NCBI GenBank assembly: GCA_017404985.1
Contig: JAFRBK010000042.1
Coordinates: forward strand, 1-42,805
Direction: 5' to 3'
DNA length: 42,805 nucleotides
From: Clostridia bacterium
GTDB taxonomy: Bacteria; Bacillota; Clostridia; Christensenellales; Aristaeellaceae
The notes under the pieces were generated by a model, which was given only the letters and a program-made list of their open reading frames with translations, did not search any database and was not told the origin of the DNA. Made by a program: the position numbers and the translations under genes. This document shows positions 3,181 to 42,007 of the stretch, in pieces (position 1 is the first letter of the stretch; the number at the start of each line of letters is the position of its first letter).

Positions 3181-3300
3181 ATGAAGGATACCCTTGCCTG
3201 GGATCTAAGCAGAAACAACGACCCAACCAATTGCATTGACATTGATCCAAAAACACTATACTCCCTGGAGCATACAGAAGAACTGGAAGAAGTGGTGTAA
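3181..3300 (+). CDS. Possible small protein (39 aa), unrecognised
   Basis: An ATG at 3181 opens 39 codons ending TAA at 3300. The product is acidic (ends EELEEVV) and of ordinary composition. It follows the HEPN gene by 24 bp but has no clear ribosome binding site. It could equally be the tail of a lost gene. I recognise no family. Confidence 0.25.
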   Translation: MKDTLAWDLSRNNDPTNCIDIDPKTLYSLEHTEELEEVV

Positions 3301-3358
3301 CGCGAGAAAACACAAAACCGAAAGGATAAAAAAATTTTTTCAGTTTTTTGAAAAGTCG

Positions 3359-3398
3359 GAACGAAATGGAACGAAATGGAACGAAATGGAACGAGACG
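3359..3398. repeat. Four tandem 10-bp repeats (GAACGAAATG)
   Basis: Three exact copies of GAACGAAATG (3359-3388) and one variant GAACGAGACG (3389-3398), preceded by A/T homopolymers. This sits in the 416-bp gap 3157-3572. Function unknown; it could be a slippage tract or an iteron-like site. Confidence 0.75.
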
Positions 3399-3449
3399 GG
3401 AATGAATCTTTTGTAGTATACTATACTTGCCCAAATTGGATGGGGGAAC

Positions 3450-3483
3450 AAACAGCCTCGCGGAGTGATTCGCGGGGCTGTTT
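3450..3483 (+). terminator. Strong hairpin, possible terminator
   Basis: A 13-bp stem (one T-G pair) runs from AAACAGCC at 3450 to GGCTGTTT ending 3483, with an 8-nt loop. The T-rich tail is short (TTTGATT), so termination is plausible but not certain. Confidence 0.5.
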
Positions 3484-3500
3484 GATTAGAGCGGAAAGTT

Positions 3501-3558
3501 CAGAGTTTAGAGCTCGGGGGGAAGGACGAAGCTCAGAGTTTAGAGTTTAGAGTTCGGA
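3501..3558. repeat. CAGAGTTTAGAG direct repeats
   Basis: CAGAGTTTAGAG occurs at 3501-3512 and 3534-3545, with a further partial copy up to 3558. The repeats lie immediately before the terminase relic. They may be a dispersed intergenic repeat; no other copy is seen in this window. Confidence 0.5.
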
Positions 3559-3572
3559 GAAGGAGGCGACGG

Positions 3573-4148
3573 ATGCTCCGGAATGAGGATGTGGCGGAGG
3601 TGTTGCAGCGGCCGGAGGTTTTGGGGCGGATGGTTGGGTTTACGGATCTGACGGCTTTGCATGGGGAATGGATTCATGAGATGGTTTTCGGGGATAAGGA
3701 CTATACTTTGCAGGCACATCGGGAGGCCTTTAAGTCTTCGTGTTTGGCGGTGGCTATTCCGCTTTACATGGTTCTGTATCCTGATCGGAATGTGATCTTT
3801 CTGCGGAAGACGGACCATGATGTGGGCGAGATGATGAACATGGTGGCGAAGGTTTTGCAGTCGGATGTGATGCGGGATTTTACACAGACGAACCGCGGGG
3901 TCCAGCTGAAGATTACGGAGCAGAGCATGGACCACATCACGACGAATCTGTGGCATTTGCCGATGGGGGCTCCGCAGCTGCGGGGGCTGGGGATTCCAGC
4001 AAGAGCAGAGGTGGGGTTTGTGAAAGCGAGTTTCGGGATAAGACGATTCAGAATGGCGGGTGGAATCGGGTTGGGCTGTATGGGAAGTTTGATTATTTTA
4101 CCAAATTGTGGGATGGGATGTCTGTATTTTCCTGTAAACAAACGATGA
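3573..4148 (+). pseudogene. Phage terminase large subunit, N-terminal relic
   Basis: The first about 135 codons resemble the ATPase part of terminase large subunits: DYTLQAHREAFKSSCLAVA, then LYPDRNVIFLRKTDHDV, then MGAPQLRGLGI. In functional relatives the first block is a Walker A of the HRGSxKTT kind; here Gly is Glu and TT is SS. After GLGI the expected GKHAD...TDD region and the whole nuclease domain are missing. The frame continues into unrelated-looking sequence, and a neighbouring frame (to 4159) also reads protein-like, so a deletion or frameshift lies near 3990. A good AAGGAGG site precedes the ATG. No other phage genes are nearby. Confidence 0.6.
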
Positions 4149-4179
4149 ACGCAGTGTGAATAATCTTTCGCCGGATGAT

Positions 4180-5094
4180 TTATGCGTTTTCAGGGGGCTT
4201 TTTTGTGCTTTCTGTTTTCCAGTTCAGCAGGACCACGGCCGCGAGGATCAGGAGAATGCCGAGCCCGGACAGGAGGGTTATCGGCTCGGAAAAAAACAGG
4301 ATCCCGACCAGGGTGGCTACCATCGGCTCAATGGTGGCGAGGATGCCCGCTTTGCTGGCCTCCACCGTCTGAAGGCCGAGCGTATAGGACAGAAAAGGAA
4401 TAACAGCCGTGACCAGCGCGGTCAGGCAGCAGAAGAGCAGCAGCGAAATCGGGCTGGGCGCGGCGGAAAACTTTGAGACCATGTCCGACGGGTTACAGAT
4501 CAGCCAGGAACCGGCCGCGGCAAACAGAAAGGTATAGGTGGTCACGGTATAGGGAGAATACTTGCGCAGCGCAACCGTGCCGAGAATGCTGTAGAGGCCA
4601 TAGCCGATGCCGGAGCCCAGCCCGACAAGCAAACCGGTCAGAGATATGCCTTCTCCGGAGATTCCCGAAACCAGAACACAGCCGGCAAAGGCCAGGGCCA
4701 GCGCCAGGAGCTTCCTTCCGGTCAGTTTTTCCCGGAAGAACAGCGCCGACATCAGCATGATCCAGATTGGCGAGGTATACAGCAGAATCGCGGCCGTGGA
4801 AAGCGGCATCATGGTAATCGCCGTAAAATAACAAACCGTAAAGAACAGGATGCTTCCGAATCCCAAGCCCAGAAACAAAGGAATATCCCGCAGGGAAATC
4901 CGAAAGCCGGCAGGGTTGCGGATGAGCAGCAAAACAGAAAAGAACAGGGCGGCCAGCGTGACCCGGATGGACACGATCTGAACAGAGCTGAAGCCAAAGG
5001 AGGTGAGCTTTCGGACAAAGATTCCCATGCTGCCCCAAAAACAGCCGGCCAGAATAATCAGCAGCGGCCCGATATTTCGCCTGTTCCTTACCAT
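4180..5094 (-). CDS. EamA/DMT-family transporter (10 TM)
   Basis: This membrane protein of 304 aa has two EamA repeats, each about five hydrophobic helices, as in drug/metabolite exporters of the RhaT/YdcZ type. The substrate cannot be read from the sequence. Upstream in-frame ATGs exist at 5115 and 5112, but GGAAGGA lies 9 nt before the ATG at 5094, which is preferred. It follows the four-helix DMT gene on the same strand with a short gap (34 bp), so the two are probably one operon. Confidence 0.85.
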   Translation of the reverse strand: MVRNRRNIGPLLIILAGCFWGSMGIFVRKLTSFGFSSVQIVSIRVTLAALFFSVLLLIRNPAGFRISLRDIPLFLGLGFGSILFFTVCYFTAITMMPLSTAAILLYTSPIWIMLMSALFFREKLTGRKLLALALAFAGCVLVSGISGEGISLTGLLVGLGSGIGYGLYSILGTVALRKYSPYTVTTYTFLFAAAGSWLICNPSDMVSKFSAAPSPISLLLFCCLTALVTAVIPFLSYTLGLQTVEASKAGILATIEPMVATLVGILFFSEPITLLSGLGILLILAAVVLLNWKTESTKKPPENA

Positions 5095-7884: not shown

Positions 7885-8201
7885 GGATGAAATGTTTCCT
7901 TTCCTGTAACACATTTTGTTTTCAGCGGCTTCGGGCGAATTCCGGTAAAAGGGAAACCGGATCCGGCGGAAGCCGCAGGAGCATATTTTACCATTAAGTG
8001 GTGAATGGCGCAAATTTCACACAAAAAAAATCCCATGCCGTAATCGTCCTCACGGTCATGGGCGTCTTTCTTGCGGTTATACCGTTTCCTGCTCTCAACG
8101 GTCTTTGTTACCGGGCTGAAGGCCCAGGTGACGCGCCGCTGCCGGTTGAGCTCCTTCTGAGCCTTCTTGCTCAGCTTCCCTTTGGGAACAAACTTCGCCA
8201 T
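7881..8201 (-). CDS. Small basic protein, unknown function
   Basis: As read it is 106 aa. The first about 55 residues are strongly basic and look like a compact conserved small protein (KGKLSKKAQKELNRQRR, then SPVTKTVESRKRYNRKK, ending near DDYGMGFF). The rest is less protein-like. A run of eight A/T bases at 8023-8030 follows GMG; one base fewer would end the protein about ten codons later at TAA. Either the long form is real and translationally coupled to DUF4317 by the ATGA overlap, or the natural product is about 66 aa. A G-rich site (AAGGGGGG) precedes the start; GTG 8207 and ATG 8204 are alternatives. Confidence 0.6.
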   Translation of the reverse strand: MAKFVPKGKLSKKAQKELNRQRRVTWAFSPVTKTVESRKRYNRKKDAHDREDDYGMGFFLCEICAIHHLMVKYAPAASAGSGFPFTGIRPKPLKTKCVTGKETFHP

Positions 8202-8292
8202 CATCACCGCCCCCCTTCACATCGCGTGAGAGCATTGTACCACAGGCGGAAGGGGATGGCAAGCGCCGCATCCATCGGGGCTGACAATTCTC

Positions 8293-8321
8293 TTGAATCA
8301 TGCAACCCGGTATGATACAAT
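8293..8321 (+). promoter_or_regulatory. Promoter of the adenylate-forming enzyme operon
   Basis: TTGAAT (8293-8298), 17-nt spacer, TACAAT (8316-8321) with an extended -10 TG one base upstream. It starts the plus-strand unit 8381-12628 and lies back to back with the minus-strand small protein gene. Confidence 0.65.
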
Positions 8322-8380
8322 TAAAAGTACTATGTAAAAGAAGCCGTGCCAGCAATGAAACGGCCGGAAAGGAACCAACC

Positions 8381-11053
8381 ATGAAAGCAGCTGAAAGGGA
8401 ACAATTGGCAAAAGTGCAGGAACGCTACGACAGCGGCGAACTGGCGGACCAGAAATGCTGGTCCTTTATCAAGGAGCTGAACTCCTACAGCGAAGAGCGC
8501 CTGAACAGCATCGCGATCCATGACAGTTATCGGAAATACACCTACCGCCAGATGTTCCGTTACTGGGAACGGTACGCAGAAGCCTTCTCCGGTGTGAATA
8601 TTACTGGCAAAAACCATTCCCGCGTTGCGCTGATCGGCATGCAGCAGACGGAGACCATTTTTGCCTTCTACGCCCTGAACATGACCGGGGCCTCCGTATC
8701 CCTCATTTATCATCTGGACCTGTATGATGAAAAGCGCATCCGGACCATGCTCGAAAGGGAGAAGATCACCGATCTGGTGATTTCCGAGGTCAATGCTTTT
8801 CCGAATGTCATGAAGAAACTCCTGCGCGAAAAGGAAGTTCTCGGCCTGCGGAACATTATTCTGCTGGAAAGCCCCATGGGCGGCGAATACGGCATCCCCC
8901 CGCTGGAGGCAGTCCGCAAGCTGAACGCGGCCATGTTCCGCGAGCTTGGGGGCGGGCTGCTGATGGCAGACCTTCTGAAGGAATATGAGGCCACGCCCAT
9001 CGCCTACGGCAGCCCGGAATCCACAGACGGGTCCGTGATCATGCACACCACGGGCACGGTGAGCGGCATTCACAAGCCGATCCCCATGGCTGACAAGGCT
9101 TTGAACTCTTTCGTGATCTGCGCCATGGAAGCGAAGGACACATACGACGATTTCAAAAAAGCGCCGAAAAAAATGGTCAGCTTCCTGGCGCTGTGCCTGT
9201 CCTGGGTTTACTCGATGGTGGACATGCTGCATACGCCTCTCGGCCTCGGCATGGAAGTGGTGTGCCTGCCCCTGGGCGCCACCAACCCGCATTTTGCCAA
9301 CGCGATCGAAGAATGCGGCATCAGCATTCTCTTTACCAGCATGAGCATTCTGGATACCTGGAACAAGACGATGCCCGATATCGACCTGTCCAAGGTGAAG
9401 GTTGTGTTCATGGGAGGCACCTATATTTCTCCCGAATTCAAGAAGAGCTTCAACGATTATCTGCGGTCCTGCGGCTCCACCGCACGGATTATCAACGGCT
9501 ACGGGCTGTCCGAATTGGGCGGCGCCTGCATCGTCGCCCCCTCGGACCGGGAAGACGACGCCATCGGCTATCCGCTGCCGGGCTTCAAGGTTAAAATTTT
9601 CTCCGAAGATGAAAAGAAGTTCTACGACCTTTCCGACGGGCCGCGCACCGGCGTCCTGTATCTATCCTCCCCCACGATGAGCAGCGGACGGCTGGGGGAC
9701 ACCGTATTCTTCGAACTGGAAAAGGTCGACGGGGAAGACTATTTCAACTCCAATGACCTTGTGCGGGTGAACGAAGACGGAAGCATGACCTGCATCGGGC
9801 GGTCCAACAAATTCTTTGTCAACAACGCCGGCGTGCGCTTTGACGCCGGGCTGGTCGAGACCGCCATGACCGCGCAGCCGGGCATCGCGGCCTGCGGCGT
9901 TGTGCCGGAGCACCACAAGATCCTGCATGACAATGTTCCCGTCCTCTATGTGGAAACGACCGGCGATTCGGACGGGTTAGGCGTGATGCGCGACGCGCTG
10001 ATTCAGGTGTTCATCAAAGACGGAAAACTGGCGGAGACCAATCTGCCCAGCCAGTGTGTGCTGGTGGAGAAAATGCCGCTGAATTCCGGCGGGAAGGTGG
10101 ACACGAAACGGCTGCAGTCCGGCGCCGTTGCCGGAAAGAGGTTCGGCATCAGGCATGTCAAACTGGACGGCAGGATCAATGATATCCTGCTCCTGCCCGC
10201 GGCGGACGGGGAATCCGCCGCGTTGAGCGGAGGCATTCCGGAGGAACTGGAGAACGATCCCTACAACATCCTGAACGAGATCTTTGCCGCCATTCCGGAG
10301 ATCAAAAGCGGCGGAATGTCCAAGATTCTGAGCATTCCCGGCCTGCGGGAACTGGTCAAGAAGCTCACGGACTTTGACCTGGACAACATTCCGGGAAGCA
10401 TCACCAAACTGGGCCCGAAGATTATGAAGCTTTCCATTGATGAGCTGCCGCCCCTGCCGAAGATGAACGGAGACGGGAAAAAGAGCGACACGAGGGACTG
10501 GCTGAAGAATCTGCTGTCCGTGTTTGAAGGAGTGGAAGCGCCCGCGCTGCCGCTGCCCGTGGTACCGCCGCTACCCATCGTTCCGCCGCCGCTGCCGCTT
10601 CTGCCGCCGGTGCTGCCCCTGGCACCCTGGGGATGGTCCGGGAAGAAGAACAGGAATAAGGATGACCGCAAGGACCAATGGAATCAGGTGAAAAACGACG
10701 CGGAAACCCGCAGGGAGACGATGCGGGGAGCGCAGAAAGCGTCCGTGGATGCCTGGAATGACCAATGGGACAAGGCCTTTCCCAAACTGATGGAGATTCT
10801 GGAAAGCTTCGCCGCTTCCCTGCCTGACGAAGCGCCTACGCTGTTCGGGATGCCGATTTTCGGCGTGTCCCCGAGGGGCTTTATGGAAAAGATGAACGAG
10901 TTCACGGAAAACGCCGGCAAGCATGCCAGGGAGCAGGCGGATTCCTTCAACGACTTCGTGCGGAAGGGACAGCAGCAGGCCAAAGAAGTGATTACGAAGA
11001 CTGTGGAACGCATCGAGAACGATACGGAAGATATCCTCGACGATGCGGAGTAA
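8381..11053 (+). CDS. Adenylate-forming (AMP-binding) enzyme fused to phasin-like helical domain
   Basis: The protein has 890 aa. Residues about 30-580 are an ANL-superfamily adenylating domain: A3-like HTTGTVSGIHKP (222-233), A5 NGYGLSE (372-378), A7/A8-like NDLVRVNEDG...GRSNKF (458-478) and an A10 lysine in NSGGKVD (K572). The A3 loop departs from the usual TSGTTGxPK. Residues about 625-700 are amphipathic, 720-749 are almost only Pro, Leu and Val, and 750-890 form a charged, Trp-containing helical domain paralogous to the next gene product. Acyl-CoA or acyl-AMP ligase activity on a carboxylic acid is likely; the substrate is unknown. The ATG at 8381 has GGAAAGGA about 7 nt upstream. The tail may anchor the enzyme to a hydrophobic surface (inference). 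Confidence 0.85.
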   Translation: MKAAEREQLAKVQERYDSGELADQKCWSFIKELNSYSEERLNSIAIHDSYRKYTYRQMFRYWERYAEAFSGVNITGKNHSRVALIGMQQTETIFAFYALNMTGASVSLIYHLDLYDEKRIRTMLEREKITDLVISEVNAFPNVMKKLLREKEVLGLRNIILLESPMGGEYGIPPLEAVRKLNAAMFRELGGGLLMADLLKEYEATPIAYGSPESTDGSVIMHTTGTVSGIHKPIPMADKALNSFVICAMEAKDTYDDFKKAPKKMVSFLALCLSWVYSMVDMLHTPLGLGMEVVCLPLGATNPHFANAIEECGISILFTSMSILDTWNKTMPDIDLSKVKVVFMGGTYISPEFKKSFNDYLRSCGSTARIINGYGLSELGGACIVAPSDREDDAIGYPLPGFKVKIFSEDEKKFYDLSDGPRTGVLYLSSPTMSSGRLGDTVFFELEKVDGEDYFNSNDLVRVNEDGSMTCIGRSNKFFVNNAGVRFDAGLVETAMTAQPGIAACGVVPEHHKILHDNVPVLYVETTGDSDGLGVMRDALIQVFIKDGKLAETNLPSQCVLVEKMPLNSGGKVDTKRLQSGAVAGKRFGIRHVKLDGRINDILLLPAADGESAALSGGIPEELENDPYNILNEIFAAIPEIKSGGMSKILSIPGLRELVKKLTDFDLDNIPGSITKLGPKIMKLSIDELPPLPKMNGDGKKSDTRDWLKNLLSVFEGVEAPALPLPVVPPLPIVPPPLPLLPPVLPLAPWGWSGKKNRNKDDRKDQWNQVKNDAETRRETMRGAQKASVDAWNDQWDKAFPKLMEILESFAASLPDEAPTLFGMPIFGVSPRGFMEKMNEFTENAGKHAREQADSFNDFVRKGQQQAKEVITKTVERIENDTEDILDDAE

Positions 11054-11217
11054 GAAGACGATTCATCATCCGGCAATGAATAACCTGATGGAGGAGACCG
11101 GATCCCGGACCCATCCGGCAGCGAATGCCGGAGAAAAAAGCGTCTGACTGGCAGCGACGATGATGTTGCTGGCATTCAAACATAACTCTTAGGCAATTTT
11201 GAAAGGAGAACAAAACA

Positions 11218-11667
11218 ATGGGTAACAAAAAGAAGATGGCCAAGGCGCTCTTCCCGCTCATGATGGGCTGGGGATGGACCAAGAGCGAACGCAAGGAAAA
11301 CTGGAAAGACCTGAAATCCAACATGGAGAAGCTCTGGGACCAGTACCAGGATGTGCAGAAGACAACGAAGGACGCATGGAAGGACCGCTGGGAAAAAATC
11401 TTCCCGCAGCTCATGGAAATGCAGCAGACTTTCGCCGACACCCTGCCCGATGAGAAGGTCTCCCTGCCTGGGCTTCCTACCAGCCCCCTGTCCCCGAAAG
11501 AATTCGTGGAGAAAATGAAGAAATTCCAGGAAAATGCCCATTCGCACGCCGTGGAGCAGAGAGAGCATTTCTACAATTATGTCGTTGAGCGGCAGCAGCA
11601 GGTGAAAGATGCCGTTACGGATGCTGTGGACCAGGTCGAAGAGGACCTGGATGGAAAAGAAGACTGA
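11218..11667 (+). CDS. Phasin-like Trp-rich helical protein
   Basis: The protein has 149 aa, is predicted almost wholly helical and has no cysteine. It aligns with residues 750-890 of the upstream enzyme throughout: WGW near the start, DAWxDxWxKxFPxLME, LPDE, SPxxFxxKMxxFxENAxxHAxEQ and QQQxK. Size, composition and the W-K-D-x-W helix recall the polyhydroxyalkanoate inclusion proteins of Bacillus (PhaP type), which coat storage granules; this is resemblance in character, not a proven homology. AAAGGAG lies 8 nt before the ATG, 164 bp after the enzyme gene. The hydrolase gene starts inside its 3' end. Confidence 0.7.
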   Translation: MGNKKKMAKALFPLMMGWGWTKSERKENWKDLKSNMEKLWDQYQDVQKTTKDAWKDRWEKIFPQLMEMQQTFADTLPDEKVSLPGLPTSPLSPKEFVEKMKKFQENAHSHAVEQREHFYNYVVERQQQVKDAVTDAVDQVEEDLDGKED

Positions 11668-12628
11668 TTTCCGATCGGACAATCGGCGTATGAATCCGTT
11701 GTTTCAGGTTCCCATCAGGATGATGGACCGCAGGTGCAGAAGGCTGGAAGCCGGTATTGAAACCGGCCACCAGGTTCCTGATGGCGTTCTCGAATATCTG
11801 GATATGCCGTTCCAGGGGGCAGGAGGCGTTCCACTGGCAGTGGACATCTTCCGGGCAAAAGCCCGGGACCTTCGCCCCCTTCCCGTCGTGATCATGATTC
11901 ACGGCGGGGGCCTGGTGGTCGGCACCAGGAAACTGTCACGAACCTTCTGCGAAAAACTGGCGGCGCGGGGCTTTCTTGTATTTGCCCCGGAATACCGGAG
12001 GCTGACGGAAACCGACGTGTTTCAGGAAATCGGGGATGTGGCCGCAGCCCTTGCTTCCGTTTCCGGCATGCTTGCGGAATACGGGGGTGACCCTGACCGG
12101 GTTACCATCGTATCCGAAAGCGCCGGTTCCTTTTTGTCTGTCTATGCCGTTGCGGCCATGGGGTCTCCGGCCCTGCGAAAAGCCTTCGGGCTGCCGGAAG
12201 TTTCTCTTCGTGTTCGCGCGCTTGCCTGTTTCAGCGGGTTTTTTTATACCGCGCGCAGAGATCTGCCCGGCCTGGTCTATGGCCGGATGATGTTCGGAAA
12301 AAAGAGAAAAGAATCCTCCTTCAGGCGGTACCTGGATCCGGAATGCCCGGATGTGATGGACCGGCTTCCGCCCGTTTTTCTGGCCGGAAGCGATGCGGAT
12401 TTTCTGAAAAGCTATACAAAGCGCTATGCGGCGGCGCTGCGCAGTGCAGGGCATTCATGCAAGCTGGTTTACTACGAAGGCAACAAAAAACTGACCCATG
12501 CTTTTCCCGCGTTAAAACCCGACCTTCCGGAGAGCAGGAACGTGATGGATCAGTTAGTGGACTGGATCAGTCTACGGGAACATCAATCATGGACAGAAGA
12601 GCCAGCCGGGTCTGAACGGCTTTCATGA
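11651..12628 (+). CDS. Alpha/beta hydrolase (HSL-like esterase/lipase)
   Basis: The protein has 325 aa. HGGG (84-87) forms the oxyanion hole and VSESAGS places the nucleophile at S157 (SxSAG in place of the usual GDSAGG). GSDADFL and a late THAF supply the likely acid and histidine. This is the hormone-sensitive-lipase layout, acting on esters or lipids. There is no signal peptide, so it is cytoplasmic. The ATG at 11651 overlaps the end of the helical protein gene by 17 bp with GAGG 6 nt upstream; an ATG at 11690 is an alternative. Coupling to a phasin-like gene and an acid-activating enzyme suggests turnover of the same acyl material. Confidence 0.8.
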   Translation: MEKKTDFRSDNRRMNPLFQVPIRMMDRRCRRLEAGIETGHQVPDGVLEYLDMPFQGAGGVPLAVDIFRAKARDLRPLPVVIMIHGGGLVVGTRKLSRTFCEKLAARGFLVFAPEYRRLTETDVFQEIGDVAAALASVSGMLAEYGGDPDRVTIVSESAGSFLSVYAVAAMGSPALRKAFGLPEVSLRVRALACFSGFFYTARRDLPGLVYGRMMFGKKRKESSFRRYLDPECPDVMDRLPPVFLAGSDADFLKSYTKRYAAALRSAGHSCKLVYYEGNKKLTHAFPALKPDLPESRNVMDQLVDWISLREHQSWTEEPAGSERLS

Positions 12629-12647
12629 GCTCTTTCGTCTTTTCTTC

Positions 12648-13178
12648 TTATTTGGATTCTTCCGCATCGGCTTCTTCCTTCAGGAGCTCCTTCTTTTCCA
12701 CATGTTCGATCTCGGCGGCAATCTCCGAGGCATCCATGCGGGTAATGGAAATCTGGAAATCCTTCAGCTTGGCGGCCAACGCGGTTTCATTCTCCTCCTG
12801 CACAGTCAGCAGCACGGCGGTCTCCCCGTCGATCAGGCATTCGCTGGCTTTTTCCAGCAGCGCAGCCTTGTCATCCAGCTCCCTGTCATCCATGGAATCG
12901 CCGATCAGCGAGCCGATGGTGCCGCCGAACAGAACGCCCAGGGGGCCGGCGAGCACGCCGACCAGGCTGCCGATCAGGGTGCCGGTCCAGCCACGGCCTT
13001 TCACCGAGTCGCCGTCGATAAAGCCGTCCTCCAGGGAAAGCTGTCCGGCGTCCTTCTTAACAACGGCAGCCTGGGAAATCGCAAATCCTTTGTCGCCGGA
13101 ATCCTGACGCAGCACGCTCAGAATCTGGTAAGCCTCACTGGGGACATTGCAATTGACGATGATCACATTTTCCTTCAT
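12648..13178 (-). CDS. DUF1269 family membrane-associated protein
   Basis: The protein has 176 aa. A glycine-rich hydrophobic segment about residues 62-95 (TLIGSLVGVLAGPLG, then GGTIGSLIG) between two alpha/beta-like halves is typical of DUF1269. Function unknown. The start at 13178 follows AAAGGAT; a longer frame to 13226 lacks a ribosome binding site. It converges with the hydrolase gene with only 19 bp between stops, and no terminator hairpin is evident there. The 288 bp to the next gene hold divergent promoters and nothing else I can support. Confidence 0.75.
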   Translation of the reverse strand: MKENVIIVNCNVPSEAYQILSVLRQDSGDKGFAISQAAVVKKDAGQLSLEDGFIDGDSVKGRGWTGTLIGSLVGVLAGPLGVLFGGTIGSLIGDSMDDRELDDKAALLEKASECLIDGETAVLLTVQEENETALAAKLKDFQISITRMDASEIAAEIEHVEKKELLKEEADAEESK

Positions 13179-13466
13179 TGAACAAACATCCTTTCTTGTT
13201 TTCGATACAGGGCGATTGCCCGACAATTACATTCGTGTTTATTATCCATTATAATCATGTTACAGTCAAGGGGATATTCCAGAATGCCAAACTGTTTTTT
13301 CGTTTTGCGTTTGACAGGGCATTTGACAATTTGGAACATCGCAGTTGGTGAGCTTGCGGGAAACAAGAAAATACAGTATTATAAAATGAACTGGATGTTG
13401 TTGCGGATCACAGCCATCAAGGGTTTATTTGACTTTATTGTATCATCATTGACAGGAGGAACAAAC

Positions 13467-15398
13467 ATGCCCCAGAATATTCTTCTGACATCCCTGGACG
13501 TCCCGGAGAGCAACAAAACCCTGCGGTATTACTCCGTGCAGAACGAATTCGGCCGCGACTACTGTGAAGCCCTGCAGAGCATGGAAGCGAGCACGAAGTA
13601 TATCCTGTCCCGTTTCCCCATTGACGAGATTATCGTCTTCGGCGAGAAGGGTTCTTCAGAAGGCGTCGACGACGGGAAGCTCTTCCGCCTGAGGGACATG
13701 GACACCCCTGACCCGGAAGGGGAGGAACCCCTTTCCGCCTTCAGCCTGTATCGTTCCCGGATCGCGCAGTATATCGGCGAACAGAGCCAGGAACAGCAGG
13801 CTTATGACGAACTGCTGCCCGAAGAGAAACGGGAAAAGCTTGCCAGCTTTATCCGGGATTATCAGGAGCAGCATTCGAATCAGGAGACGAAACGGCTCAA
13901 CCGCTTTTTTGACGAGCTGGCAGGCAACAAGGAGTTCTATGAGCAGCTCAAGGATGCGCTTTTCGATGCTTTCCCGGAGGCCCGCAGTGATTCCAGGACT
14001 ACGATGAAGTGGGTGAAAAACTATCTGTATAAACAGCTGAAGCCTACTGCCAAGCTGGAGATTCTTCCGATCAACGAAAATGTCTGCGCCCGTTATGTCC
14101 CGGCCGTCCTGCTGGAGAAACGGGAGTATTGGGTCAACCGCGTCCTGGACATCAATCAGGATGTGATCGACGGCAAGGATGAAATCAACCTGTATGTTTC
14201 CCTGGGCAGCAACTCCACGGTGGACGACCATCTTGTCATGAATATACTGAACATTCTGGTTTCCACGCCGGGAAGCAATGTCCACCTGAGGAAAAACATC
14301 AGGGTTTATGAATCTTCCGGGAATCTGGCAGGATCGATTGAAGACAACACCGCCATTTTCCGTACCACAGACCTGGTTGCAGCGGCGCATGCCTTTCTGA
14401 ATTACAGCAAGACAGATTTGCTTGTGGATTTCTGGGAAAACTGCGGGGAGCACAGCGATCGGATCAGCAGCCTGATCTATGCTGCGCGCCATGTGGACGT
14501 GGGAATTTCCATGTGCAATATCACGGAGGTGCAGGAAGGCATCCAGCTGCTGCGCAGGCTGTTCAGAAATGACCGTCCCTGGACGGACGCAGGATATTAC
14601 GGGCTCCTGTTCGGCATGATTGCCGAATGCATACAGGCGGATTACAGCGCACTGCTGGAGGGCGACGGCCCCATCCCCTTTATCGAACTGATCAAATGGG
14701 CCAACAAGCATCAGCTGTACCAGCAGGTTCTGACCCTGATTGAATCCAACGCGCCGAACAGCCTGGTCAGCTCCGGCATCTTCTACTACTGTGACGACGA
14801 GGCGCAGGCAAAAGAGATCACGAACCTGTTCGCCCTGCAGCGGCTGGAGATGAAGCCTTACGAATACTACAAGATGGATGACCTTGACCATTATTTTATC
14901 AAAAACTATGATCGGGGCAGCGTTAAAATTGGCGGATCCAAAGGGGAGAACAGGACGCTTCTGTACGCCATGCTGCGGGCGCAGTCCATTGAAAACCAGA
15001 ACCCAGGCAAGATCAGAGGCTGTACCGCATGCAGCAACATAGAAACGGTGCAGAATGTCCTGTATGCCTACTATCACCTGGGCGAGGTCCGAAACAAGAT
15101 CAGCCATGCGGACGAAGCCGCGCTGGCTGAGCAACGCCTGATTGTATCCGAAAGCGACATCAGCTATGCCATGATCAAGATGCGGGAAAGCATTGATTTC
15201 TTCATTATGAATTATGAAAAGGCCCTGGCGGAAGTGGGGGACAAAAAACCGAAGATCGTTGCCATCACCCCTGATGACGTCCGGAAAACCGCAGACCACC
15301 TGAAGTACATGAAAAGCCAGGAGGAGCGGAATGCATCCGGCGGGGACAAAGGCGGAAAATGGCAGGCGAAACCGGAAGACGGGAAAAAGATGTCCTGA
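13467..15398 (+). CDS. TM1812/Csx1-type CARF-HEPN protein, orphan
   Basis: The protein has 643 aa. The N-terminus ILLTSLDV...YYSVQN...YCEALQSMEASTKYIL, then IDEIIVFG, and a second block NLYVSLGSNS near 241-250, fit the Rossmann-like sensor (CARF-type) part of TM1812-family CRISPR-associated proteins. The C-terminal third is helical and contains R542-NKIS-H547, the R-x4-H motif of HEPN ribonucleases. Relatives are RNases switched on by cyclic oligoadenylate. Here no cas gene, CRISPR array or nucleotide cyclase is in view. The start at 13467 has an ideal AGGAGG 8 nt upstream; the frame is open back to 13257 but without support. A terminator follows. Confidence 0.7.
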   Translation: MPQNILLTSLDVPESNKTLRYYSVQNEFGRDYCEALQSMEASTKYILSRFPIDEIIVFGEKGSSEGVDDGKLFRLRDMDTPDPEGEEPLSAFSLYRSRIAQYIGEQSQEQQAYDELLPEEKREKLASFIRDYQEQHSNQETKRLNRFFDELAGNKEFYEQLKDALFDAFPEARSDSRTTMKWVKNYLYKQLKPTAKLEILPINENVCARYVPAVLLEKREYWVNRVLDINQDVIDGKDEINLYVSLGSNSTVDDHLVMNILNILVSTPGSNVHLRKNIRVYESSGNLAGSIEDNTAIFRTTDLVAAAHAFLNYSKTDLLVDFWENCGEHSDRISSLIYAARHVDVGISMCNITEVQEGIQLLRRLFRNDRPWTDAGYYGLLFGMIAECIQADYSALLEGDGPIPFIELIKWANKHQLYQQVLTLIESNAPNSLVSSGIFYYCDDEAQAKEITNLFALQRLEMKPYEYYKMDDLDHYFIKNYDRGSVKIGGSKGENRTLLYAMLRAQSIENQNPGKIRGCTACSNIETVQNVLYAYYHLGEVRNKISHADEAALAEQRLIVSESDISYAMIKMRESIDFFIMNYEKALAEVGDKKPKIVAITPDDVRKTADHLKYMKSQEERNASGGDKGGKWQAKPEDGKKMS

Positions 15399-40059: not shown

Positions 40060-40830
40060 ATGAGAATGTTTGACGGAAAGGTTGCGGTCGTTACCGGCGG
40101 AGCCCATGGGATCGGCAAAGCAATTGCGGATGCATTTGTCCGCGAAGGCGCTACGGCCCATATTATCGACAGGCAGCCCGGAAACTGGTTTGTCGGTGAT
40201 GTGTCGGATAAAGAAGCCCTGGAACGTTTTTCCGGATTGGTTGCGGAGAAAAGCGGGCATGTTGATTATCTGATCAATAATGCCTTACCGATCATGAAGG
40301 GAATCGACGAATGCTCCTGGGAGGAGTTTTCCTATGCACTGGGCGTTGGCGTTACAGCTCCCTTCTATCTGACAAAGCTTTTCATGCCGTATTTTGCACC
40401 GGATGCGGCTGTAATCAATATTGCTTCTTCCCGTGACCGGATGAGCCAGCCGCAGACGGAAAGCTATACCGCAGCGAAAGGCGGAATTGCCGCTTTGACA
40501 CATGCCCTGGCAATCAGCCTGGCCGGAAAAGTCAGGGTGAACAGTATTTCCCCAGGCTGGATTGATACAACCGGAAGTGAGATATCAGGTGCAGATGCAC
40601 TGCAACAACCTGCAGGCAGAGTCGGTAAACCTGAAGATATTGCTGAGATGGCTTTGTTTCTCTGTTCGGAAAAAGCCGGGTTTATCACCGGAGAAAACAT
40701 CTGCATTGACGGCGGCATGACAAAACTCATGATTTATCATGGAGAGCATGGGTGGGAGTACTTAAGAAACGGAGCGGCGTCAGAAGGCAGCGCTTCCTTA
40801 CAGGAGGGAAACCATGCTGGAATTCTATGA
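40060..40830 (+). CDS. Short-chain dehydrogenase/reductase
   Basis: The protein has 256 aa. TGGAHGIG (12-19) binds the nucleotide, NNA lies near 73, and the catalytic set is S123/S124, Y136 and K140 (YTAAK). Asp after the second strand is replaced by IIDRQ context, compatible with NAD(H). The last about 25 residues extend past the usual IDGG end. AGGAGG precedes the ATG. Its 3' end overlaps the acyltransferase gene by 17 bp, so the two are coupled; a ketone/alcohol step before or after acyl transfer is possible. Confidence 0.9.
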   Translation: MRMFDGKVAVVTGGAHGIGKAIADAFVREGATAHIIDRQPGNWFVGDVSDKEALERFSGLVAEKSGHVDYLINNALPIMKGIDECSWEEFSYALGVGVTAPFYLTKLFMPYFAPDAAVINIASSRDRMSQPQTESYTAAKGGIAALTHALAISLAGKVRVNSISPGWIDTTGSEISGADALQQPAGRVGKPEDIAEMALFLCSEKAGFITGENICIDGGMTKLMIYHGEHGWEYLRNGAASEGSASLQEGNHAGIL

Positions 40831-42007
40831 ACCGATTCTGGATTTTTCTGCACCTGAATACCAGAACATCATGGGTATGATCCTCTTCCTCAGGGATCCT
40901 GTGAATGGTGAAATCCTCCGTTGCGTTGTGGAAGAGATGAGGGAGCGTTTTCCATACTTTTATGTCAAAGCTACGAACAGAGGAGACGACCTGGTGACCG
41001 TGCCGAATGAACTCCCCATGACGGTCCGGAATACCTGGGAGCCGATCCGTCTTCATTCCGAAGCGTCCAACTACCACCTCGCAGCCTGGAAATACGAAGG
41101 CCGCCGGCTGGCATTTGAAATCCACCACGCCCTGACCGATGGAACGGGAGTGCTGCCATATATCAAAAGTACAATGTTCCTGTATCTGTCAAAGGTGACC
41201 GGCCAAGCCTTTGACCCGGCCGGATTCTGCCTGCCGGGCGATGTGATCCCGGAATCAGAAACAGGGAATCCGTTCAGCAAACTGGATGTCGACAGCGTGA
41301 AAGCTCCCCTGTATAAAAAGAAACCGATTCCCGATTTCTTACGGCTGACTGACGCAGCAGACAATGACAAAACGGTATTTTTCATGAAGCTCTCTGAAGC
41401 GCAGATCATGAAGTACTGCAGGGACTGTGACAGCACCCCGAATGTACTGATGTCCGTGATGCTGGCCAAAGCAGCGAGGCGCCTGGATCCGGAAAACGAA
41501 AAGCCGATTACCGTATTCGTATGCGTTAATCACAAGGCAATGCTGGGGGTCTATAACAATTACCGTATGTTCACGGACGTAGCTTTGCTGGATTTCCCGA
41601 AGGAACGGGATCTGGAAGATATCACCAAGGCATGTACAATCGCCCGCGGCCAGCTGATGCTGCAGGCCCAGCCGGAGAATTCCCTCTGGGAAATCAAACA
41701 GATGAAGCGAATGCTGCCGCCTCCGTCCCCGGATATTGCGCTGGCAAGTATCTGCGTTTCCTATGTCAACAGCAGAAACTTCGGGCCGCTGGATCCTTAT
41801 ATCGATGAGCTGTATGTCGTGACTTCACTCTCGAAGATCACAGATATCCTTTGTGAGGTTACCTGTATCAACCATCATTTTTTCCTTGCATTCATGCAGC
41901 CTTATTCCTCGGGAGAGTACTTCAGGTGTTTCCTGAAGGAACTGGATTCGACAGGAATCAGCTATGAGTTTCTCCGCAGTGAGCCATTGCGCATGTGCGG
42001 GATTTGA
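40814..42007 (+). CDS. Condensation-domain-like acyltransferase
   Basis: The protein has 397 aa. HHALTDG with H104, H105, D109 and G110 is the HHxxxDG motif of the condensation/alcohol acetyltransferase/WS-DGAT superfamily, which joins acyl groups to amines or alcohols. The N-terminal layout (PEYQNIMGMILFLRDPV, then a HxA-like beta strand before the motif) fits stand-alone acyltransferases of about 400 aa rather than an NRPS module; no carrier protein is nearby. AGGAGGG lies 5 nt before the ATG. Substrates are unknown. Confidence 0.8.
   Translation: MLEFYEPILDFSAPEYQNIMGMILFLRDPVNGEILRCVVEEMRERFPYFYVKATNRGDDLVTVPNELPMTVRNTWEPIRLHSEASNYHLAAWKYEGRRLAFEIHHALTDGTGVLPYIKSTMFLYLSKVTGQAFDPAGFCLPGDVIPESETGNPFSKLDVDSVKAPLYKKKPIPDFLRLTDAADNDKTVFFMKLSEAQIMKYCRDCDSTPNVLMSVMLAKAARRLDPENEKPITVFVCVNHKAMLGVYNNYRMFTDVALLDFPKERDLEDITKACTIARGQLMLQAQPENSLWEIKQMKRMLPPPSPDIALASICVSYVNSRNFGPLDPYIDELYVVTSLSKITDILCEVTCINHHFFLAFMQPYSSGEYFRCFLKELDSTGISYEFLRSEPLRMCGI

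Follow-up and report, generated by a model that had tools for sequence, protein, structure and literature searches.

A conserved ligase, hairpin and hydrolase gene set of gut and rumen bacteria as a candidate surface-tethered acyl hydrolysis and activation module

The stretch of DNA considered here (the window) spans 42,805 nucleotides and comes from a Clostridia bacterium of the Aristaeellaceae (assembly GCA_017404985.1, contig JAFRBK010000042.1). Three consecutive genes on its forward strand encode an adenylate-forming (ANL) acid ligase with a helical C-terminal tail, a small protein consisting of the same helical hairpin, and an HSL-type hydrolase. This gene set of gut and rumen bacteria is real, conserved and linked by fusions, and it is apparently undescribed so far. 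We consider the chances about even that the trio is a surface-tethered acyl hydrolysis and activation module. The features of the locus are as follows.

8293 to 8321, forward strand: sigma-70-like site TTGAAT-17-TACAAT ahead of the trio (found by consensus scan; such sites are no more frequent than in shuffles)
8381 to 11053, forward strand: ANL acid ligase with C-terminal tail, 890 aa (AMP-binding PF00501 in Pfam, E 1.9e-32; motifs; ANL fold in an AlphaFold2 model)
10538 to 10636, forward strand: hydrophobic Pro-rich linker, ligase residues 720-752, with PWGW at its end (from the sequence)
10658 to 11047, forward strand: fused helical hairpin domain, ligase residues 760-889 (identity to the free protein; model)
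11218 to 11667, forward strand: free hairpin protein, 149 aa, putatively coat-like (identity with the ligase tail; AlphaFold2 model)
11248 to 11277, forward strand: LFPLMMGWGW motif of the free protein, counterpart of the ligase linker end LPLAPWGW (alignments)
11651 to 12628, forward strand: HSL-type alpha/beta hydrolase, 325 aa (Abhydrolase_3, PF07859, E 6e-18; catalytic motifs)

The ligase ATG is preceded by the ribosome-binding-site-like AAAGGA, and 164 bp separate the ligase gene from the free hairpin gene, which has a strong ribosome-binding site of its own (GAAAGGAG at 11201-11208) and is overlapped by the hydrolase gene over 17 bases. The ligase tail and the free protein are 42% identical over 132 aa (E 1e-36), and neither has any other match in their own genome (2.98 Mb, 85% complete). 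An initial annotation made from the letters of the window had described a ligase ending in a Pro-rich linker and a helical domain, a next gene encoding that domain alone, and an overlapping HSL-like hydrolase; this anatomy was recovered in full, with two helices of low confidence modelled in the tail. It had also placed all three genes behind one promoter at 8293-8321. The site exists and a consensus scan of 8150-12900 gave no promoter-like match between the genes, but two such sites in this interval compare with 1.4 +- 1.3 in shuffles, so the site alone is no evidence of a promoter. Transcription of the trio as a single unit would fit the lack of internal matches, without being proven by it.

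Both window enzymes keep their predicted catalytic motifs. In the ligase, the ATP-binding motif HTTGTVSGIHKP and the lysine of GKVD are intact, and the P-loop, YG-x-SE, GR hinge and C-terminal Lys motifs of ANL enzymes accompany an ANL fold in the AlphaFold2 model (pLDDT 72.1, pTM 0.62), which matches luciferase, benzoate-CoA and coumarate-CoA ligases (E about 1e-28 to 1e-26). The ATP-binding loop, YG-x-S/T-E, GR hinge and catalytic Lys are kept in nearly all of the ligases compared, one of whose rows is cut. The window ligase thus shares its fold and its ATP and acid motifs with AMP-forming acyl-CoA synthetases (ANL, PF00501); unlike these, the ligases of the module carry a C-terminal hairpin or a Met-rich tail, and the window ligase lies far below the NCBIfam cut-offs for named acyl-CoA synthetase equivalogs (best 95.9 bits versus 632, among the best 25 of 63 models). 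Profile searches against the PDB gave no match at 1e-20 and, at 1e-12, a beta-aminoacyl-ACP synthetase, which does not tell the substrate.

The window hydrolase scores 65.8 bits against the Abhydrolase_3 cut-off of 25, and its HGGG, SESAG, GSDAD and LTHAF motifs are intact, which together place it among the HSL-type hydrolases; bacterial esterases are its matches in the PDB (E 2e-16). It has the HGGG, S-E-S-A-G, Asp and His motifs in common with that group, but its nucleophile motif starts with Ser, it is genetically linked to ligases, and in kin a domain related to it forms one protein with a ligase. Nearly all hydrolases compared keep HGGG, the Ser of the nucleophile motif, and the acidic and His motifs; the exceptions are L052 7044 and L041 at HGGG, several proteins near the acidic residue, and one row without a readable His (L numbers denote loci of the survey described below).

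The free hairpin protein was modelled from 27 sequences as helices 2-16, 22-74 and 93-147 (pLDDT 85.8, pTM 0.61), while the ligase tail appears as helices 760-812 and 831-889 at low confidence (pLDDT 44-63 per block of ten). Its first long helix is amphipathic to a degree matched by 15 of 2000 shuffles. The stem before the hairpin has a Met plus Pro fraction of 0.4 to 0.8 over 30 residues in 16 of the 19 members of the ligase clade introduced below. The window scored 0.47 and L042 0.43; L034 and L045 were measured over a shorter tail end only.

These relatives were collected by one scan of a genome collection with two ligase patterns, which returned 49 loci in which ligases are present by construction. 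The sample sites in the locus titles, where named, are the rumen or intestine of ruminants, and the other titles name only an isolate. In a quick ligase tree of 73 rows, with SH-aLRT support only, the window ligase falls, with support 100, into a clade of 19 whose members come from Clostridia, Lachnospiraceae and Coriobacteriaceae/Atopobiaceae. We read this mixture of Bacillota and Actinomycetota as transfer between phyla. The hairpin is fused to the ligase in 13 of the 19 (window, L033, L034, L039-L046, L049 and L074), is the next gene 29-104 bp after the ligase in five (L035-L038 and L047), and in the last, L048 (2112-5391), overlaps the ligase end out of frame, which would reflect either a split fusion or a sequence error. 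Four of the 13 fused cases have a free hairpin gene as well (window, L033, L034 and L049). A hydrolase matching that of the window (blastp E 1e-5 or better) is close by in 10 of the 19 loci, on the same strand in eight (window, L033-L036, L038, L041, L049) and on the opposite strand in L047 and L048; the contig edge is reached in L037 and L045. Among neighbours common to at least three loci, none besides ligase, hydrolase, hairpin and Met-rich proteins recurs in a module-like way beside trio-type ligases.

A similar association is found within the genus. Of 61 genomes surveyed, 37 belong to the genus, the window's own included, and six of these carry the hairpin (G000, G003, G009, G011, G025 and G033); one further genome of the order gave a weak hairpin match (E 9.1e-4). 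A close ligase (70% identity or more) occurs in five of the six and in none of the other 31, and a hydrolase orthologue (65% identity or more) in five of the 37, all of them hairpin carriers. The G003 contig starts at the hairpin gene, the contig of the sixth hairpin genome, G025, ends directly after a hairpin gene, and G004 has a hydrolase relative at 38% and no hairpin. The overlap of hydrolase and hairpin has a chance of 1.4e-5 by simple counting that ignores kinship, a figure to be taken as a guide only because the genomes are related. Extra free hairpin copies lie away from the trio in G033 (two) and G011 (one), and a search of 398 phylum genomes for the hairpin returned the own genome and one weak match (E 2.7e-4).

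Ligases of other branches, about 31-49% identical to that of the window, stand alone or form clusters of at most four genes, and here hydrolase and ligase are repeatedly one protein. There are 14 distinct fusions (L051, L052, L053, L055, L056, L057, L060, L062, L066, L069, L070, L075, L079 and L080) of 895-1051 aa, except for L069 (799) and L060 (531); in L056 and L060 the gene is truncated where the contig stops. The L054 fusion repeats that of L053, and L076 carries one fusion in pieces. In a tree restricted to module hydrolases, the fused domains and three free ones (L050 7016, L052 1782 and L059) form one group, and the window hydrolase with six others of its clade a second (support 100/99), so the linkage to ligases recurs with two hydrolase types. 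Together with the 19-member clade and the co-occurrence in the genus, these fusions support the initial proposal that the three genes belong together.

In seven of the fusion loci (L057, L060, L062, L069, L070, L075 and L079), a Met-rich protein is encoded just before the fusion gene. These proteins, of 142-212 aa and in some cases of NPMNMMNPMN type, gave no Pfam match for the one scanned, and could possibly be a further coat or scaffold. Several other-branch ligases carry a terminal Met-rich helical tail, to which Lys/Ala/Pro repeats are added in some. Homology between the hairpin and the Met-rich tails of Lachnospiraceae-type ligases was rejected at an hhalign probability of 0.2%, and the two are therefore described separately.

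Lys/Ala/Pro-rich tails are also found on some of the hairpin proteins themselves. Open reading frames of 100 aa or more were screened for a 40-residue stretch with a K+A+P fraction of 0.6 or higher and no fewer than six K and four A, covering 1603 from L033-L081 and the window as well as those of L026, L029 and L032. The screen returned 18 (17 distinct): eight free hairpin proteins, five ligase tails, three small genes that adjoin a ligase or hydrolase (L038, L032 and L054), and a penicillin-binding protein (L080 15913-17866) that was taken as unrelated and not counted. Because the loci are centred on ligases, the closeness of such reading frames to ligases is partly by design. The motif PAKKA is repeated seven times in the small L038 protein and six times in a hairpin protein of L047; single copies are present in L029, L035 and L079 and in an unrelated L066 reading frame. 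A basic tail of the kind sought in DNA-tethering coats such as PhaF, PhaM and MLDS occurs in 8 of 17 distinct free hairpin proteins by this threshold and is absent from the window copies.

Several further genes were observed around these ligases. The own genome holds a second ligase (L031 9780-11861, reverse strand, contig C42), 37% identical, without a hairpin and ending FPW...FMPFG, and no hydrolase, hairpin or other ligase was found in the 19.9 kb around it. In L026 (10844-12078), an other-branch ligase comes after a 4HBT thioesterase and a GNAT acyltransferase, and 0.9 kb beyond it lies a hairpin protein with a K/A/P tail. Ligase-hydrolase clusters also contain small proteins that are acidic or carry Cys (L053 17535-17833, L052 2766-3278 and L054 7352-7972); two of them start MYKGF..DI..VF, and the one from L054 has no Pfam match. 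MatE-type membrane proteins lie near ligases in L055 (5744-7531), L052 (5191-7047) and L040 (13482-14831), the first two also with a HATPase_c_2 domain, and two L054 proteins (3211-4977 and 12487-13722) are MatE-type by clustering only. In the window, a 713-aa protein (13257-15398, forward strand) without a Pfam match at cut-off has relatives near L030/L073 (one place) and L035. A 397-aa protein (40814-42007, forward strand), likewise without a Pfam match at E 0.5, has relatives in L068 and L078, loci holding other-branch ligases; its HHALTDG stretch resembles the HHxxxDG acyltransferase motif.

The initial annotation had called the hairpin phasin-like, and this was tested against PF09361, PF05597, PF09602, TIGR01841, TIGR01837 and TIGR01985. 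No phasin profile exceeds its curated cut-off in either window copy, nor, for Pfam only, in L036, L041 or two L047 proteins; the rest of the 27 hairpin members were assessed by E-value only, with Phasin_2 best at 1.2e-4. At a Pfam E of 0.1 or better, the 27 members match ApoLp-III (7), Phasin_2 (5), Apolipoprotein (4), PHA_synth_III_E (1) and PhaP_Bmeg (1), while their reversed sequences match Phasin_2 in five (best E 5.2e-4) and Apolipoprotein in three, with ApoLp-III not among the 25 of 37 families listed. The NCBIfam phasin models at the same E, counted without a reversed control, are TIGR01985 in 3, TIGR01837 in 2 and TIGR01841 in 1 of 27. Because the reversed control is equal for Phasin_2 and no cut-off is reached, phasin membership was dropped: on these profiles, the phasin resemblance of the hairpin is a likeness, not membership, and the data neither establish nor rule out a relation to apolipophorin-like helices. 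Searched by profile against the PDB, the hairpin matched no phasin and gave weak unrelated hits only.

Three known systems offer comparisons. PhaP of Aeromonas has a short helix followed by helices 17-60 and 66-109, according to PMC5180188, and the modelled hairpin shares this phasin layout of a short N-terminal helix and two long ones, a generic fold common among proteins and weak evidence of kinship. PMC5658603 and PMC3574117 place the acyl-CoA synthetase ACS1 and PhaZ on polyhydroxyalkanoate (PHA) granules of P. putida and describe a DNA-binding C-terminal domain in PhaF. The PhaF/PhaI/PhaP phasins of Pseudomonas and Aeromonas resemble the hairpin in being small helical amphiphilic proteins. 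Unlike them, the window hairpin is covalently part of the ligase, reaches no phasin cut-off and comes without a detected PhaC_N. MLDS of Rhodococcus jostii RHA1 pairs a droplet-targeting part with a PAKKA tail, as outlined in PMC5504291, where its C-terminal PAKKA motifs bind DNA; PAKKA repeats occur in the relatives L038 and L047, and the K/A/P tails of 8 of the 17 free hairpin proteins resemble the kind by which MLDS binds DNA, whereas the window copies have no tail and no WS/DGAT was found (with a silent control).

In olefin synthesis, the hydrolase OleB and the ANL ligase OleC act in sequence and can be one protein. OleB acts through an Asp nucleophile and is accompanied by OleA and OleD; the window hydrolase differs in its Ser lipase box. 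The ligase-hairpin-hydrolase architecture was not found among the literature matches listed, in searches with most subscription papers and all bioRxiv preprints outside them, and within the same limits no co-mention of phasin with Butyrivibrio was found.

From these observations, a surface-based route may be proposed. The hairpin, with its hydrophobic, Pro/Met-rich and Trp-containing stem, would act as a surface-binding and oligomerising device, the free protein coating the surface, putatively of an inclusion rather than a plain membrane, and the fused copy taking the ligase to the same place. There the hydrolase would cleave esters, possibly thioesters, and the ligase would use ATP to convert the released acid, fatty or other, to acyl-AMP and then to acyl-CoA or a different acyl product. 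The Lys/Ala/Pro-rich tail that coat or ligase bears in many relatives may hold the particle at the nucleoid, in the way described for PhaF, PhaM and MLDS (PhaF and PhaM tying PHA granules to the nucleoid in PMC5658603). We favour this reading because every one of the 19 clade ligases has a linked hairpin, a hydrolase is near 10 of them, the genes co-occur in the genus and 14 fusions recur elsewhere; because catalytic motifs are kept, K/A/P tails recur, the first long helix is amphipathic and the layout is PhaP-like; and because PHA granules of P. putida carry an acyl-CoA synthetase and an acyltransferase adjoins a ligase in L040. The last is an 898-aa protein (10786-13482, reverse strand) with AMP-binding, phosphopantetheine carrier and PlsC-type acyltransferase domains beside a hairpin-bearing ligase, a single hint towards acyl lipids. 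PlsC-type acyltransferases as such (PF01553) are present in 10 of 10 genomes and are uninformative, since 10 of 14 controls have them too.

Several results weigh against the proposed surface module. PhaC_N (PF07167) was found in none of 61 genomes, with a positive control in Caulobacter, and the class III synthase model TIGR01836 exceeded its cut-off in none of 10, with one sub-threshold match in G009 and no control genome over the cut-off either. WS/DGAT was found in none of 10 genomes, an absence that is not shown because the control was silent. With none of the three found, nothing known to build an inclusion is at hand: a classical PHA granule is unlikely on this gene content, and a lipid droplet is neither shown nor excluded. 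The second long helix is weakly amphipathic (155 of 2000 shuffles reach it), Foldseek with the hairpin gave no solved structure at E 0.001 or better, and phasin membership lacks sequence support. The neighbourhood survey, which ties the hairpin to every ligase of the clade, shows no hydrolase in the locus DNA examined of seven of the 19 (L039, L040, L042, L043, L044, L046 and L074, the last with about 1.2 kb of downstream DNA only), so the trio is not universal; moreover, the loci were picked by ligase patterns, and the neighbours seen partly reflect that sampling. The window copies carry no K/A/P tail, and in all 9 of the 17 free hairpin proteins, that of the window among them, lack it by the threshold used. 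Because the fused hydrolase domains branch apart from the window hydrolase, the fusion argument works at superfamily level, and the NCBIfam, PDB and fold matches of the ligase assign it no substrate. Of the initial annotation, the anatomy and the idea of a common ligase, coat and hydrolase logic hold up; phasin membership and a PHA granule lack support.

The main rival, which we hold to be a minority prospect that nevertheless deserves serious attention, is that the hairpin is a protein-protein scaffold, a coiled coil or bundle that would cluster ligase, hydrolase and partners in the cytosol without any lipid. The model is a simple helical hairpin whose best Foldseek matches, not significant, are helical proteins such as prefoldin; no inclusion-forming synthase was found, given the weak or silent class III and WS/DGAT controls, and the weak phasin and apolipoprotein matches arise on reversed sequences too. 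A cytosolic scaffold sits less easily with the hydrophobic, Pro/Met-rich stem in most of the clade and with the recurrence of K/A/P tails. Rather unlikely, in our estimate, is a catabolic module for plant or dietary esters, in which a feruloyl-esterase-like hydrolase frees aromatic or other acids, the ligase makes the CoA ester and the hairpin docks both on the membrane. The named sample sites, rumen or intestine, would suit it, as would the likeness of the ligase model to luciferase and to benzoate- and coumarate-CoA ligases, although ANL fold matches do not tell the substrate. BD-FAE, which we take to be a feruloyl/acetyl xylan esterase family, is the first match for the hydrolase part of one fusion (E 1.6e-18) and the second for the window hydrolase (E 1.7e-14), for which Abhydrolase_3 is better; no reductase was noticed among gene clusters common to at least three loci, in a family scan of some clusters only.

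That the three genes are independent chance neighbours, the tail being a recent duplication of the next gene, is so improbable that it can nearly be set aside. Tail and free protein are indeed adjacent and alike, and only 6 of 37 genus genomes have the hairpin, but the hairpin is fused, adjacent or overlapping throughout a 19-member clade spanning two phyla and there are separate hydrolase-ligase fusions, so that the neighbourhood survey largely refutes this explanation.

A wider conjecture, which we regard as distinctly improbable though of interest, is that gut Bacillota and Coriobacteria may possess an inclusion or surface compartment without PHA synthase and WS/DGAT, in which ligases with built-in or adjacent coats and a hydrolase-fold enzyme, perhaps an acyl transferase, would produce and coat a hydrophobic acyl store from gut acids, tie it to the nucleoid and mobilise it. 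If the surface-tethered module is real, rumen and gut anaerobes would have an unrecognised route by which acids are retained at a hydrophobic surface, set free and activated again, which would bear on how fatty or plant-derived acids are handled in the rumen, and the hairpin would be a natural anchor of enzymes to such a surface.

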